From Aeromicrobium choanae (GTDB taxonomy: Bacteria > Actinomycetota > Actinomycetes > Propionibacteriales > Nocardioidaceae): DNA of 64,000 bases. This document shows, piece by piece, positions 10,248 to 57,215 of this stretch. The position numbers were made by a program, and so were the translations under genes. The notes beneath the pieces were generated by a model, which worked only from the letters and a program-made list of their open reading frames with translations, was not told the origin of the DNA and did not search any database. Position 1 is the stretch's first letter. Each line of letters opens with the position of its first letter. The stretch spans positions 1,922,001 to 1,986,000 of the forward strand of contig NZ_LT796768.1 of NCBI RefSeq assembly GCF_900167475.1, in the 5' to 3' direction.

Positions 10248-11498
10248 GTGCGGATTGCACTGTTGTCCTACCGCAGCAAGCAGCACAGCGGTGGGCAGGG
10301 CGTCTACGTGCGCAACCTCAGCGCCGGACTGGCCGATCTCGGGCACGAGGTGACGATCTTCTCCGGCCAGCCGTACCCGGAGGACCTGCACCCCGAGGTG
10401 CGCCTCGAGAAGGTGCCGAGCCTCGACCTCTACCGTGACGACGACCCGTTCCGGACGCCGAGGCTGCGCGAGTTCCGCGACTGGATCGACGTCCTCGAGT
10501 ACCTGCAGATGCTCACGGCGGCGTTCCCCGAGCCGCTGACGTTCAGCCTCCGCGCGCGCCGGCTCGACCTGTCGGGCTTCGACGTCGTGCACGACAACCA
10601 GTCGCTCGGGTTCGGGCTGCTGTTGATCAACCGGCGCCAGCCGTTCCTGGCCACGATCCACCACCCGATCAGCCGCGACCGCGCGCTCGACATCGCCGCC
10701 GCTCCGCTGCGCAAGCAGGTCACGACGCGCCGCTGGTACGCGTTCGTGCGGATGCAGGCGTTCGTGGCGCGACGGATCCGCACCATCCTGGGCGTCTCGT
10801 CGGCGTCCGCCGGCGACACCGTGGCCGACTTCCGGCTGCGCCCCGAGCAGATGACCGTCGTGCCGCTCGGCGTCGACACCGACCTGTTCAGCCCCTCGGA
10901 CGAGCGGGTGCCCGGCCGGCTCGTCGTGGTCGCCAGCGCCGACTCGCCGCTGAAGGGCCTCTCGCACTTCCTGGACGCGGCCGCCAAGCTCAGCACGGAT
11001 CGCGACATCGACGTGCAGCTGGTGTCGAACCTCGACCCCGACGGCACCGCGTACCAGCGGATCCACCGCGGCGACCTCGCCGGCACCGTCACGGTGCACA
11101 GCGGCATCTCCGACGAGGAGCTGGCGGCGCTGATCTCGTCGGCGCAGGTCATGGTCGTGCCCTCCCTGTACGAGGGCTTCAGCCTGCCCGCGGTCGAGGC
11201 GATGTCCTGCGGCACGCCGCTCGTGGCCAGTGCCGCCGGCGCGCTGCCCGAGGTGGTGGGCGACGCGGGGGTGCTCGTCGAGCCGGGCGACGTCGAGCAG
11301 CTCGTCACGCAGATCGGCCGGCTGCTGGACGACCCCGCCGAGCGCGAGCGGCTCTCCTCGGTGGCCCGTCGCCGGGCGATCGAGCGCTTCAGCTGGCTCG
11401 CGGTGGCCCGCGCCACCGCACAGGCCTATGAGAAGGTGATCGGCGATCACCGTGCTCGCCAGTCCCGGGACGGAAGGAACCCCCATGCTGACCGTTGA
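10248..11498 (+). CDS. glycosyltransferase family 4
   Basis: A 416-residue GT-B glycosyltransferase. The N-terminal domain begins with the glycine-rich SGGQGVYVRNLSAGL acceptor loop. The C-terminal domain starts near VVPLGVDTDLF and holds the donor-site motif SLYEGFSLPAVEAMSCGTP, whose E-x7-E pattern marks GT4 enzymes. It is cytoplasmic; sugar and acceptor are unknown. GTG 10248 follows CGAGGAGG. The following methyltransferase starts inside its last 14 bp. A similar trio with a methyltransferase and a toroid protein suggests modification of one surface or storage molecule. Confidence 0.88.
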   Translation: MRIALLSYRSKQHSGGQGVYVRNLSAGLADLGHEVTIFSGQPYPEDLHPEVRLEKVPSLDLYRDDDPFRTPRLREFRDWIDVLEYLQMLTAAFPEPLTFSLRARRLDLSGFDVVHDNQSLGFGLLLINRRQPFLATIHHPISRDRALDIAAAPLRKQVTTRRWYAFVRMQAFVARRIRTILGVSSASAGDTVADFRLRPEQMTVVPLGVDTDLFSPSDERVPGRLVVVASADSPLKGLSHFLDAAAKLSTDRDIDVQLVSNLDPDGTAYQRIHRGDLAGTVTVHSGISDEELAALISSAQVMVVPSLYEGFSLPAVEAMSCGTPLVASAAGALPEVVGDAGVLVEPGDVEQLVTQIGRLLDDPAERERLSSVARRRAIERFSWLAVARATAQAYEKVIGDHRARQSRDGRNPHADR

Positions 11499-12198
11499 CT
11501 TCGACCGACTCCGGGTGGGTCGCGGCACGCGCTTCATCGACGTGGGCGCCGGTGCTGGCCGTCACTCCTACGAGGCGCTGCGCCGCGGCGCGCACGTCAC
11601 CGCCTTCGACATGGACGAGGTCGAGCTCAAGGGCGTCGAGGACATGTTCGGCGCGATGGCGCTCGAGGGCGAGGTCCCGCCCGGCGGCAGCGGCGAGATC
11701 AAGGTCGGCACGATCCTCGACATGCCCTACGAGGACGGCTCGTTCGACGTCGTCCTGGCCTCGGAGATTCTCGAGCACGTGCCCGAGGACGTGCAGGCCA
11801 TCAGCGAGCTCGAGCGCATCCTGGCGCCCGGCGGCATCCTCGCCGTCACGGTGCCGCGCTGGATGCCCGAGGCCGTGTGCTGGGCCCTTTCGGACGAGTA
11901 CCACGCCAACGAGGGTGGCCACATCCGGATCTACAAGGCCGACGAGCTGCGCGGCAAGCTCGAGGCGACGGGGCTGCGATTCACGCACCAGCACCACGCG
12001 CACGCCCTGCACGCGCCGTACTGGTGGATCAAGTGCGCGGTCGGCGTCGAGCGCGACCAGCACCCCCTCGTGCGCGGCTACCACCAGCTGCTGGTGTGGG
12101 ACATGATGAAGGCCCCTCGCACCACCCGCTGGGCCGAGAAGGCCCTCAACCCGGTGCTCGGCAAGAGCGTCGCGCTGTACTTCCAGAAGCCGTTCTGA
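11485..12198 (+). CDS. class I SAM-dependent methyltransferase
   Basis: A 237-residue methyltransferase. Motif I (FIDVGAGAGRHSYEA) is at about 17-31, the SAM-ribose Asp is in TAFDMDE, and SFDVVLASEILEHVPED is the Methyltransf_11 hallmark. GGHIRIYKADELRGKLE is typical of sugar- or lipid-acting relatives. It overlaps the glycosyltransferase by 14 bp and has GGAAGGAAC before ATG 11485, so the two are one transcription unit. The substrate is unknown. The stop codon lies 16 bp before a palindromic repeat. Confidence 0.87.
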   Translation: MLTVDFDRLRVGRGTRFIDVGAGAGRHSYEALRRGAHVTAFDMDEVELKGVEDMFGAMALEGEVPPGGSGEIKVGTILDMPYEDGSFDVVLASEILEHVPEDVQAISELERILAPGGILAVTVPRWMPEAVCWALSDEYHANEGGHIRIYKADELRGKLEATGLRFTHQHHAHALHAPYWWIKCAVGVERDQHPLVRGYHQLLVWDMMKAPRTTRWAEKALNPVLGKSVALYFQKPF

Positions 12199-12214: not shown

Positions 12215-12287
12215 CACTCTCCACTTTTGGAACGCGATCAACCGTCCTCGGGCGGCTGAAGGTGTATCCCGTTCCAAAAGTGGAGTG
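12215..12287. repeat. palindromic dispersed repeat, copy A
   Basis: The perfect 14-bp arms CCACTTTTGGAACG (12221-12234) and CGTTCCAAAAGTGG (12270-12283) enclose exactly 35 nt that pair further in part. Outside the arms, CACT (12215-12218) can pair with AGTG (12284-12287) across a small bulge. A second copy lies at 56512-56597. The right arm reaches the ribosome-binding region of the gene at 12299 (GAGG at 12287-12290), so the hairpin may hide that site. Confidence 0.85.
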
Positions 12288-12298
12288 AGGTCGGCTCG

Positions 12299-13279
12299 GT
12301 GACGCCGGCCGAGGCCCAGCAGACCGGGAAGTGGATCGCGTCGGTCCAGCTGACCAGCGGCGCGATCCCGTGGTTCGAGGGCGGTCACCTCGACCCGTGG
12401 GACCACGTCCAGGCTGCGATGGGGCTGGCCACGGCGGGCCTCGTCGACGAGGCGGTCGCGGGCTACGACTGGCTCCGGCACGCGCAGCGACCCGACGGGT
12501 CGTGGGGCCGCAAGTATTGGCCCGGCGCTGATGACGACGGCGTCGAGGAGCCCGAGACCGACGCGAACTACTGCGCCTACGTCGCCACGGGCCTGTGGCA
12601 CCTCGAGCTGCTGGGCGTCGACGGCCGAGGGTTCTTCGAGATGCTCGAGCGCGCGGTCGACGTGGTGCTCGAGCTGCAGGTCGGTCACGGCCCCGTGGCC
12701 TGGGCCCGCGGCGTCGACGGCAAGGTCGCGGGCGAGTGCCTCGTCACGGGCAACTCCAGCATCGTGTTCAGCCTGCGGTGCGCCGCCCGGCTGGCCGAGC
12801 GCTGGGGCCACCCGCGCCCGCACTGGCAGCACGCCGCCGACGGCATCGCCGAGGCCCTGACCCACCGGCCCGAGCTGTTCACGCCCAAGCCGCGCTTCTC
12901 GATGGACTGGTACTACCCGGTGATGACGGGCGTCCTCGACGGCGCGGCCGCCACGGCTCGCCTCGACGAGCGGTGGGACGAGTTCGTCGTCCCCGAGTTC
13001 GGCGCGCGCTGCGTCACCGTGAACCCGTGGGTCACCGGCGGCGAGACGCTCGAGCTCGTGCTCGCCCTCGTGCGTGCGGGCCGGCTCGACGCCGCGACGT
13101 CGCTCTACGGCGACATCCAGCACCTGCGCGATCCCGACGGCGCCTGGTGGACCGGGCTGGTCTACAACGACGGCAAGCGCTGGCCCGTCGAGCAGTCCAC
13201 GTGGACCGCCGGCACGGCCCTGCTGGCCCACGACGCCCTCACCGGCGCCACCCCGGCCGCCGGCTTCATGGGCCGCTGA
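12299..13279 (+). CDS. prenyltransferase/terpene-cyclase-like (alpha/alpha toroid) protein
   Basis: A 326-residue soluble protein with repeats of the alpha/alpha-toroid fold: RHAQRPDGSWGRKYWP, ELQVGHGPVAWA, and HLRDPDGAWWTGLVYNDGKRWP recall the QW repeats of squalene cyclases and prenyltransferase beta subunits. No DXDD or DCTAE cyclase motif is seen, so catalysis is doubtful. EQSTWTAGTALLAHDAL at the end is a family feature. It follows the glycosyltransferase and methyltransferase. Translation from GTG 12299 would use GAGG at the edge of the palindromic repeat. Role unknown. Confidence 0.75.
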   Translation: MTPAEAQQTGKWIASVQLTSGAIPWFEGGHLDPWDHVQAAMGLATAGLVDEAVAGYDWLRHAQRPDGSWGRKYWPGADDDGVEEPETDANYCAYVATGLWHLELLGVDGRGFFEMLERAVDVVLELQVGHGPVAWARGVDGKVAGECLVTGNSSIVFSLRCAARLAERWGHPRPHWQHAADGIAEALTHRPELFTPKPRFSMDWYYPVMTGVLDGAAATARLDERWDEFVVPEFGARCVTVNPWVTGGETLELVLALVRAGRLDAATSLYGDIQHLRDPDGAWWTGLVYNDGKRWPVEQSTWTAGTALLAHDALTGATPAAGFMGR

Positions 13280-55952: not shown

Positions 55953-56483
55953 GTGAGGACCCTCATCACCGGAGGCGTGCGTTCGGGCAAGTCGTTCCAT
56001 GCCGAGTCGATGCTCGTCGCAGCCACCGACGTCACGTACATCGCCCCGGGTCCGCCGCCGGACCCGGAGTTCGATCCCGACTGGGCGGCGCGCGTCGAGG
56101 CCCACCGGGGGCGTCGGCCCCAGCACTGGAAGACGGTCGAGACCGCCGACCTGGAGCGCGCCATCGCGATGACCGACGACACCGTCATCGTGGACTGCCT
56201 CGGCACGTGGGTCACCGCCCTGATCAGCGAGCTCGACGGCTGGGACCAGACACTCGACGACTGGGAGCCCGAGTTCTGGCTCCGCGTCGAGCGCGCCGTG
56301 CAGGCGATGACGGCCCACGCCGAGGACGTCGTCGTGGTGACCAACGAGGTCGGCTGGGGCGTCGTGCCCGAGCACCGCTCCGGGCGGCTGTTCCGCGACC
56401 TGCTCGGCAAGGTCAACCAGCGCTTCGCCATGGACTGCGACGAGGTCCTGCTCGTCGTCGCGGGCCGCGTCCTGCGCCTCTGA
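55953..56483 (+). CDS. cobU: adenosylcobinamide kinase / adenosylcobinamide-phosphate guanylyltransferase
   Basis: A 176-residue bifunctional enzyme that phosphorylates adenosylcobinamide and adds GMP on the way to cobalamin. The P-loop GGVRSGKS is at residues 7-14. AHRGRRPQHW carries the His that takes GMP. VIVDCLGTWVTALI is Walker B, and VVVTNEVGWGVVPEHRSGRLFRD is the conserved CobU block (cited in part), followed by NQRFA. The partners cobS and cobT lie on the opposite strand just beyond tag. The gene ends 28 bp before repeat copy B. Confidence 0.93.
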   Translation: MRTLITGGVRSGKSFHAESMLVAATDVTYIAPGPPPDPEFDPDWAARVEAHRGRRPQHWKTVETADLERAIAMTDDTVIVDCLGTWVTALISELDGWDQTLDDWEPEFWLRVERAVQAMTAHAEDVVVVTNEVGWGVVPEHRSGRLFRDLLGKVNQRFAMDCDEVLLVVAGRVLRL

Positions 56484-56511: not shown

Positions 56512-56597
56512 GCCACCCCTCGGCCACTTTTGGAACGCGTTGCACGTGGGATCGCGGCGAAAGCGTGCATCCCGTTCCAAAAGTGGCGAGGGGTGGC
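56512..56597. repeat. palindromic dispersed repeat, copy B
   Basis: The arms CCACTTTTGGAACG (56524-56537) and CGTTCCAAAAGTGG (56573-56586) are identical to copy A and again enclose 35 nt. Here the flanks GCCACCCCTCG (56512-56522) and CGAGGGGTGGC (56587-56597) also pair. The centre pairs further (TGCACG with CGTGCA). It lies between the convergent ends of cobU and tag, where it could also end both transcripts. Confidence 0.88.
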
Positions 56598-56612: not shown

Positions 56613-57215
56613 TCAGGCAGGAGGCGTGAAGGCCGCGCGGGCGTCGGCGACGCGGGCGCGGATCACGCAGTCGTGGGCGTGGTCGTTGACCAGACCCATC
56701 GCCTGCATGAACGAGAACACCGTGGTCGGGCCGACGAACTTCCAGCCGCGCCGCTTGAGGTCCTTCGACAGCGCCGTCGCGGTGGGCGAGGTGGTCAGCG
56801 ACTGCGGCTCGGGGATCTCGGCCGGGTCGGGCTCGTGGCGCCACACGAACGCCGCGAGGGAGCCCTCCGACTCGATCAGGTCCAGCGCGCGGCCGGCGTT
56901 GTTGATCGCCGCCTCGATCTTGCCGCGGTGCCTGACGATGCCCGCGTCGGCGAGCATCCGCAGCACGTCGGACTCGTCGAACGCGGCGACGGTCTCGAGG
57001 TCGAACCCCGCGAACGCCGCGCGGAAGTTCTCGCGCTTGTCCAGGATCGTGCGCCACGACAGGCCCGACTGGAACCCCTCGAGGCAGAACTTCTCGAAGA
57101 GCCGCACGTCGTCGGAGACGGGGAAGCCCCACTCGCCGTCGTGGTACTCCACGAAGCCGGGGGCGCCACCGGCCCAGTCGCAGCGCGGCGCGCCGTCGGG
57201 GCCGAGGAACGTCAT
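56613..57215 (-). CDS. tag: DNA-3-methyladenine glycosylase I
   Basis: A 200-residue base-excision enzyme that removes 3-methyladenine from alkylated DNA. Cys12 and His25 in RCDWAGGAPGFVEYHDGEWG, with the C-terminal HAHDC, form the zinc site of TagI. FEKFCLEGFQSGLSWRTIL is the helix-hairpin region and contains the damage pocket. FVGPTTVFSFMQAMGLVNDH is conserved. ATG 57215 overlaps the cobS stop as ATGA, so a DNA repair gene is translated with cobalamin genes, possibly by chance of packing. Confidence 0.93.
   Translation of the reverse strand: MTFLGPDGAPRCDWAGGAPGFVEYHDGEWGFPVSDDVRLFEKFCLEGFQSGLSWRTILDKRENFRAAFAGFDLETVAAFDESDVLRMLADAGIVRHRGKIEAAINNAGRALDLIESEGSLAAFVWRHEPDPAEIPEPQSLTTSPTATALSKDLKRRGWKFVGPTTVFSFMQAMGLVNDHAHDCVIRARVADARAAFTPPA

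Follow-up and report, generated by a model that had tools for sequence, protein, structure and literature searches.

An AbiEi–DUF559 fusion gene and its matched palindromic sites make up what looks like a REP-like system in Aeromicrobium and other Actinobacteria

Two copies of a 63-nt palindromic site in the genome of Aeromicrobium choanae are probably solo recognition sites belonging to a system of two parts, and the enzyme would be encoded elsewhere on the chromosome. The candidate enzyme gene is bracketed by further copies of the same site, and the combination of such a gene with matched sites, present across many actinobacteria, looks like a previously undescribed kind of REP-like selfish or mobile DNA. 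The paired architecture of the sites, their occurrence as flanking pairs, their co-divergence with the protein, their presence or absence among genomes and their location at gene 3′ ends are features of the sequences themselves, the AbiEi and nuclease folds come from structure prediction, and binding, cutting and spread are what we infer from the two together.

Results

Two copies of the F1 site in the window

The window analyzed here is a stretch of 64,000 nt (positions 1,922,001–1,986,000) of the 3.42-Mb genome, which is assembled in one contig. It contains two copies of the site, which we refer to as F1, with the following neighbors.

11485–12198, plus strand: methyltransferase gene (PF08241), 3′ end 22 nt upstream of copy A; context, outside the system
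12221–12283, no strand assigned: F1 palindromic site copy A, 63 nt; half-sites 12221–12243 and 12261–12283, center 12244–12260
12299–13279, plus strand: gene without a Pfam hit, start 15 nt past copy A; context
55953–56483, plus strand: cobU (PF02283), end 40 nt before copy B; context
56524–56586, no strand assigned: F1 palindromic site copy B, 63 nt; half-sites 56524–56546 and 56564–56586, center 56547–56563
56613–57215, minus strand: 3-methyladenine DNA glycosylase gene (PF03352), convergent with cobU, end 26 nt past copy B; context

As a first-pass annotation of the window had pointed out, the 14-nt arms CCACTTTTGGAACG and CGTTCCAAAAGTGG are identical in the two copies and lie 35 nt apart in each. 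The half-sites match one another at 20 of 23 positions in copy A and at 21 of 23 in copy B. With up to two mismatches allowed, the F1 core motif has four matches in the window, every one of them inside copy A or copy B, versus a mean of 0.63 in shuffled windows, none of which reached four. An Rfam search of the window returned nothing beyond two cobalamin riboswitches (RF00174; 39733–39885 and 42354–42489, plus strand), and neither repeat copy was matched. The riboswitch pair probably heads a cobalamin gene cluster that runs on to cobU at 55953.

Across the whole genome, F1 occurs in four perfect copies and in 12 with at most three arm mismatches, and a reversed-pattern control gave no matches. 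With a covariance model trained on 30 copies, this genome gives 29 matches, of which 28 score 54–78 bits on the better strand; the 29th (at 904,037, 40 bits) is a member of a related family, F2 (ACTTTTGTGACG...CGTCACAAAAGT), which has 19 copies of its own. The genome scan and covariance model that the first-pass annotation had called for thus yield about 28 F1 copies, nearly all precisely 63 nt long. Its proposal of a dispersed palindrome family under selection is borne out, and the outcome that it named as fatal, two copies only and none in relatives, did not materialize. F1 copies are absent from approximately 2.99 Mb around to 0.03 Mb, and the stretch at 1.41–2.13 Mb holds about half of the total. 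F1 and F2 sites come within 3 kb of one another at four places (for example, 1,784,798 and 1,786,395), with roughly one expected by our own estimate, and an F2 site lies at 1,986,989–1,987,047, about 1 kb past the right end of the window.

Two inverted half-sites around a free center

Among the 28 copies in the genome, F1 positions 1–12 (CCACTTTTGGAA) are nearly invariant, positions 13–17 and 19 are variable, and positions 18 and 20–22 are again conserved. Over positions 13–23, the two halves of a copy agree with a frequency of 0.795, versus 0.686 for shuffled halves (a value reached in 0 of 1000 shuffles), and this agreement is strongest at positions 13, 14 and 19, where covariation stands at 0.82, 0.75 and 0.57 compared with 0.38, 0.43 and 0.31 after shuffling. 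From position 24 inward, pairing falls to 0.366 versus 0.344 with the halves shuffled (p = 0.23), and conservation is likewise at chance. Because pairing and conservation both end at position 23, we describe F1 as 23 + 17 + 23, that is, two inverted 23-nt half-sites separated by a freely varying 17-nt center.

F1 is therefore not a small-loop hairpin, and its layout is that of the operators of AbiEi antitoxins. The binding target of Streptococcus agalactiae AbiEi is a pair of 23-bp inverted repeats with 3 bp between them (PMC7319586), and Rv2827c of Mycobacterium tuberculosis has pairs of 23-bp inverted repeats 13 bp apart (PMC7319586, PMC3985639), in both cases directly upstream of the gene. 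F1 has the corresponding 23–17–23 arrangement, and most of the partner genes described below have a palindrome upstream.

The first-pass annotation had read the repeat as a selected DNA or RNA hairpin, citing the compensatory change from C12243:G12261 in copy A to G56546:C56564 in copy B and the ability of the outer flanks to pair. The compensatory change is present; however, position 23 pairs at chance across the family (0.61 versus 0.53 shuffled, p = 0.31), so this pair is not evidence by itself. The pairing of the flanks proved to be an effect of composition, the left flank being C-rich and the right flank G-rich, with 7.03 matches between the flanks of one copy versus 6.99 between shuffled flanks (p = 0.42). 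A long hairpin with selected flank pairing was accordingly rejected. A center that pairs at chance, the lack of a T-run or TTTT downstream of the copies (0 of 60 flanks) and length steps of about 10 bp between families leave the hairpin unsupported as the selected feature. In a lineage whose arms start with GGCGGTG, the site measures 52–53 nt in 20 cases and 62 nt in four. A step of about 10 bp (53 versus 63), or one helical turn, suits two proteins bound on one face of duplex DNA.

A partner gene bracketed by matching sites

Outside the window, a lone gene beside lepA (444,956–445,897) has an F1 copy on each side and encodes a DUF559 protein. The gene at lepA is bracketed by sites in the same manner in three other Aeromicrobium genomes (G037, G077 and G119). 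The putative encoded partner, of the kind that the first-pass annotation had proposed to look for, is a nuclease gene with matching repeats on both sides. A second gene of this type (1,731,487–1,732,434) is bracketed by F2 sites; the genome has two genes and two site families, with each gene bounded by its own. The idea that the fusion gene adjoins most F1 copies was discarded, as among the first F1 loci inspected it is present at the lepA locus alone.

Searching the proteins of the genus turned up relatives in 45 of the 49 genomes, with between one and six per genome. Among 48 of these congeneric genes, a palindrome with a score of at least 10 is found upstream of 29, downstream of 25, on both sides of 16 and on either side of 38, compared with 3, 8 and 0 (upstream, downstream and both) for 92 control genes. 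The 10 of 48 genes with no such palindrome on either side are explained in part by palindromes that are imperfect. Upstream and downstream arms of a single gene overlap in their 5-mers by a mean of 0.47 (at least 0.2 in 30 of 32 genes), whereas the mean between different genes is 0.08 (above 0.2 in 9%). Arm similarity also follows protein identity (Spearman ρ = 0.33, reached in 0 of 999 permutations; 0.34 for the N-terminal part and 0.29 for the C-terminal part). As judged by these sequence comparisons, the palindromes are gene-specific, and site and protein co-diverge. Between the flanking palindromes, only the fusion gene was called, with no AbiEii (DUF1814) toxin gene. At the thresholds used, no matching gene was found for the F1 sites of G133 and G056 or for the F6 sites of G110.

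The association extends beyond the genus. In a survey of Modestobacter, Blastococcus, Klenkia, Nocardioides, Mumia, Leifsonia, Salinibacterium and unclassified Nocardioidaceae, 24 of 34 fusion genes are flanked on one or both sides by a palindrome scoring at least 10, and palindromes on both sides with the same arms are frequent. One family, GTTGATCATCGGC...GCCGATGATCAAC, is present in five perfect copies in each of two Modestobacter genomes and one Blastococcus genome (Geodermatophilaceae); all copies are 63 nt long in a search that permitted 56–70 nt, and in each genome the gene lies between two copies spaced about 1.0 kb apart. AbiEi–DUF559 fusion genes are common in Actinobacteria. One lineage adjoins a gene for a LepA-like GTPase, probably typA, in many species (L276, L274, L289, L283, L218, L286, L297, L288, L224, L281 and L272), and the sites of this lineage have a constant outer GGCGGTG and a species-specific inner half-site.

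Predicted domains of the fusion protein

The predicted models have a mean pLDDT of 93.8 for the whole protein and 91.4 for its N-terminal part. A foldseek search with the N-terminal model gave AbiEi (6y8q, E = 2.5e-4) and Rv2827c (1zel, E = 4.4e-3) as its top two PDB matches, each at a probability of 1.00. In addition, 34 of 35 members match the PADLOC AbiEi profiles, and the match to Pfam AbiEi_4 falls below the Pfam cut-off. By the predicted model, the N terminus is a winged helix followed by an AbiEi-type second domain. The C-terminal part resembles the catalytic domain of the homing endonuclease I-Bth0305I (3r3p), with a fold probability of 1.00 at a weak E-value and a sequence match at E = 0.0022. 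Residues E189, D222, E233, H239 and R252 are found in 77 of 77 aligned proteins and D249 in 76 of 77, an alignment in which 30 of the proteins were collected by a pattern that itself requires E233, G236 and the histidine region. By our own assignment, E189, D222, H239 and D249 are the residues of the EDxHD motif, and from the alignment the catalytic motif is intact. The protein is thus predicted, on the strength of its modeled fold, to combine an AbiEi-type DNA-binding domain with a DUF559/EDxHD nuclease of the Vsr/homing type.

Sites lie behind genes

In nine genomes, 63 sites lie between convergent, 44 between co-directional and two between divergent genes. Control gaps of at least 60 nt in the same loci number 11 convergent, 66 co-directional and 76 divergent (p about 1e-19 in the convergent and in the divergent class), a contrast that is somewhat exaggerated, as occupied gaps were left out of the controls. 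With genes called by our own codon-usage-based caller, five sites in these genomes overlap a gene, and sites lie a median of 21 nt from the neighboring 3′ end. The ten neighboring genes that we inspected have unrelated functions or belong to no family. Gene ends also hold ordinary GC-rich hairpins of other sequence.

The strong bias toward convergent pairs and gene ends, with the short distance to the 3′ end, is what would be expected of bidirectional transcription terminators or mRNA 3′-end hairpins that share their sequence by chance, and F1 copies can indeed be folded as RNA. We nevertheless regard this explanation as improbable, since the centers are unpaired, the flanks are devoid of TTTT, the arms are specific to the nuclease gene and are found upstream of it as well, and hairpins of quite different sequence share the same location. 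A somewhat better, though still unlikely, alternative is that the protein serves purely as an AbiEi-like autorepressor, with the upstream palindrome as its operator, the solo copies as operators of a regulon and the nuclease employed otherwise, for example in defense. The operators described for AbiEi proteins share this layout of paired 23-bp repeats and lie upstream of the gene, and most of the genes studied here have an upstream site. However, a matching site is also found downstream of the gene, solo sites lie behind genes and avoid divergent promoters (2 of 109 sites versus 76 of 153 control gaps), and the ten neighboring genes do not form a functional set. In addition to the two-part system that we favor, the upstream site likely mediates autoregulation.

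Gain, loss and decay

The F1 covariance model, run over the 49 Aeromicrobium genomes, matches strongly in six and weakly in others. The weak matches are variants, palindromes of 63–65 nt with different arms: CCCAGATTTGCGGA in G063 and G125, CCGAGATTTGGATC in G107, G110 and G113, CCGAGATGTGCTCC in G133, and more besides. Copies of one family agree inside a genome, and the family differs from species to species. Genome G133 also has an unrelated repeated palindrome, GTCACTTCACGAGGTTTGCAAACCTCGTGAAGTGAC with GTGACAGTTTCCCCGGTTAACCGGGGAAACTGTCAC (L132:974–1101, L134:4438–4473 and L146:4399–4482).

The interval from lepA to the next gene, a ligase gene, measures 1,238 nt in A. choanae, including site, gene and site, versus 31 nt in G056, whose LepA C terminus is 99% identical. 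The cassette behind lepA is missing in several further congeners too. The presence of the gene at lepA in G037, G077 and G119 as well makes gain in the lineage of A. choanae no more likely than loss in G056 and G133. Both G056 and G133 have kept F1 solo sites in the absence of the F1 gene, and perfect half-sites make up 19 of 74 there compared with 91 of 118 in genomes with the gene (p = 2e-12), a comparison that involves two gene-less genomes only and takes its reference half-site from A. choanae. Past the lepA stop codon of another genome (G137, L356), a nearly perfect 75-nt palindrome (GGTCCCCGTTGAGTGTGACGTTTGGACGGTGAAATG...) lies at 24–98 nt, and a degraded relative occupies the same place in G104.

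Polymorphism of the kind that the first-pass annotation had proposed to look for is found between G037 and G077, two species about 93% identical: three solo sites occur in just one of the two, and the remaining sites compared are common to both. No target duplication was seen at the three polymorphic sites, where the junctions have diverged and the empty sites are not clean. Among fusion genes with 65% identity or more, the neighbors are almost always the same, suggesting that cassettes rarely move and that inheritance is mainly vertical. The orientation of the flanking pair, as read from the center motif, is inverted in Geodermatophilaceae; in Aeromicrobium there are 19 direct pairs, eight inverted pairs and five ties, a mixed picture for a solo-LTR-like origin of solo sites by deletion between the two flanking sites.

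About 30 conserved, symmetric, extragenic copies per genome could also be chromosome-organizing or segregation sites, similar to matS or Noc sites and read by an architectural protein. We consider this very improbable, given that this form of the site is missing in most congeners, is polymorphic between close species and switches its sequence family along with the nuclease gene between species.

Discussion

We propose that the F1 gene and its sites make up a nuclease system with the following mode of action. Two protomers would bind the inverted 23-bp half-sites on one face of the duplex, holding their nuclease domains above the 17-bp center, which would vary because it is not read. With a site on each side, gene and sites would form a cassette that is gained or lost as a unit. 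Repair or copying after a nick or cut at a site could then spread and homogenize the solo sites, and copying or conversion from another copy after a cut would give conserved arms, free centers and agreement within a genome. Solo sites would persist mostly right behind genes, where the harm they do is slight, and their location may thus reflect selection against insertion into promoters and genes.

REPs are hairpins of 20–40 bp with a GTAG or CGTC tag (PMC3733652), and RAYT (TnpA-REP) genes are flanked by two palindromes, with enzyme and repeat co-diverging (PMC2817692, PMC8266576). The first-pass annotation had named REP elements and MITEs as candidates, and the former comparison holds in part: an enzyme gene flanked by matching repeats is present, although in the strict sense the reading fails, as no gene for a Y1 HUH transposase (PF01797) was found in any of the 49 congeneric genomes, with five of 14 control genomes positive. 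A short (20–40 nt) hairpin with a GTAG or CGTC tag was not encountered either, F1 being 63 nt long with the outer motif CCACTTTTGG. Classic REP or MITE elements mobilized by a Y1 (RAYT) or DDE transposase would account for dispersed palindromes, species-specific families and an enzyme gene between two copies, as for RAYTs (PMC2817692); given the missing Y1_Tnp gene, the missing tag and the site length (63 bp versus 20–40 bp, PMC3733652), we hold out very little prospect for them, and the RAYT form of this explanation is refuted for the genus. With both the Y1 enzyme and the short tagged hairpin absent, the system is not a member of the REP/RAYT group, though it would resemble REP/RAYT in its working.

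Our best reading is therefore of a REP/RAYT-like nuclease and its sites, assembled from unrelated parts, whose binding, cleavage and spread we infer. More tentatively, and with slightly less than even confidence, we suggest that AbiEi–DUF559 fusions at large serve as the enzymes of a second REP-like class of independent origin, each reading its own pair of inverted half-sites in duplex DNA, cutting the open center and in this way both spreading and homogenizing its sites. What appears to be new is the pairing of the AbiEi–DUF559 gene, built from two known domain families, with palindromes on which it would act; in a literature search that covered mainly open-access papers, we found none linking DUF559 with AbiEi or with such palindromes. 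The proposal offers a function for a large unannotated actinobacterial family and names its likely DNA targets from sequence. If it is true, REP-like systems arose at least twice, from unrelated enzymes, and the rules that such genome residents follow in general could be put to the test. The many gene-specific site pairs that co-vary with their proteins also provide a data set on how AbiEi-type winged-helix proteins choose their DNA.

Homing enzymes recognize a single uninterrupted target site, which insertion destroys. The C-terminal fold of the fusion protein and its E, D, H and D residues are shared with EDxHD/Vsr homing endonucleases such as I-Bth0305I and with DUF559 proteins, but the sites here lie on either side of the gene and remain in many copies. 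AbiEi antitoxins (S. agalactiae AbiEi and Rv2827c) share with the fusion protein the N-terminal fold, the profile matches and the paired 23-bp inverted repeats upstream; they differ in that the protein described here is fused to a nuclease, its cassette has no AbiEii toxin gene, and a second site lies downstream with dozens of solo sites elsewhere. A further close parallel is with the REP/RAYT systems (REPtrons), in which an enzyme gene likewise lies between two repeats, enzyme and repeat coevolve, and solo copies of many sequence families are dispersed outside genes. The system described here differs from REPtrons in its enzyme (an AbiEi wing and an EDxHD nuclease in lieu of a Y1 HUH enzyme), in its site (63 bp, with two 23-bp half-sites, an open center and no GTAG tag), and in its occurrence in Actinobacteria at tens rather than hundreds of copies.
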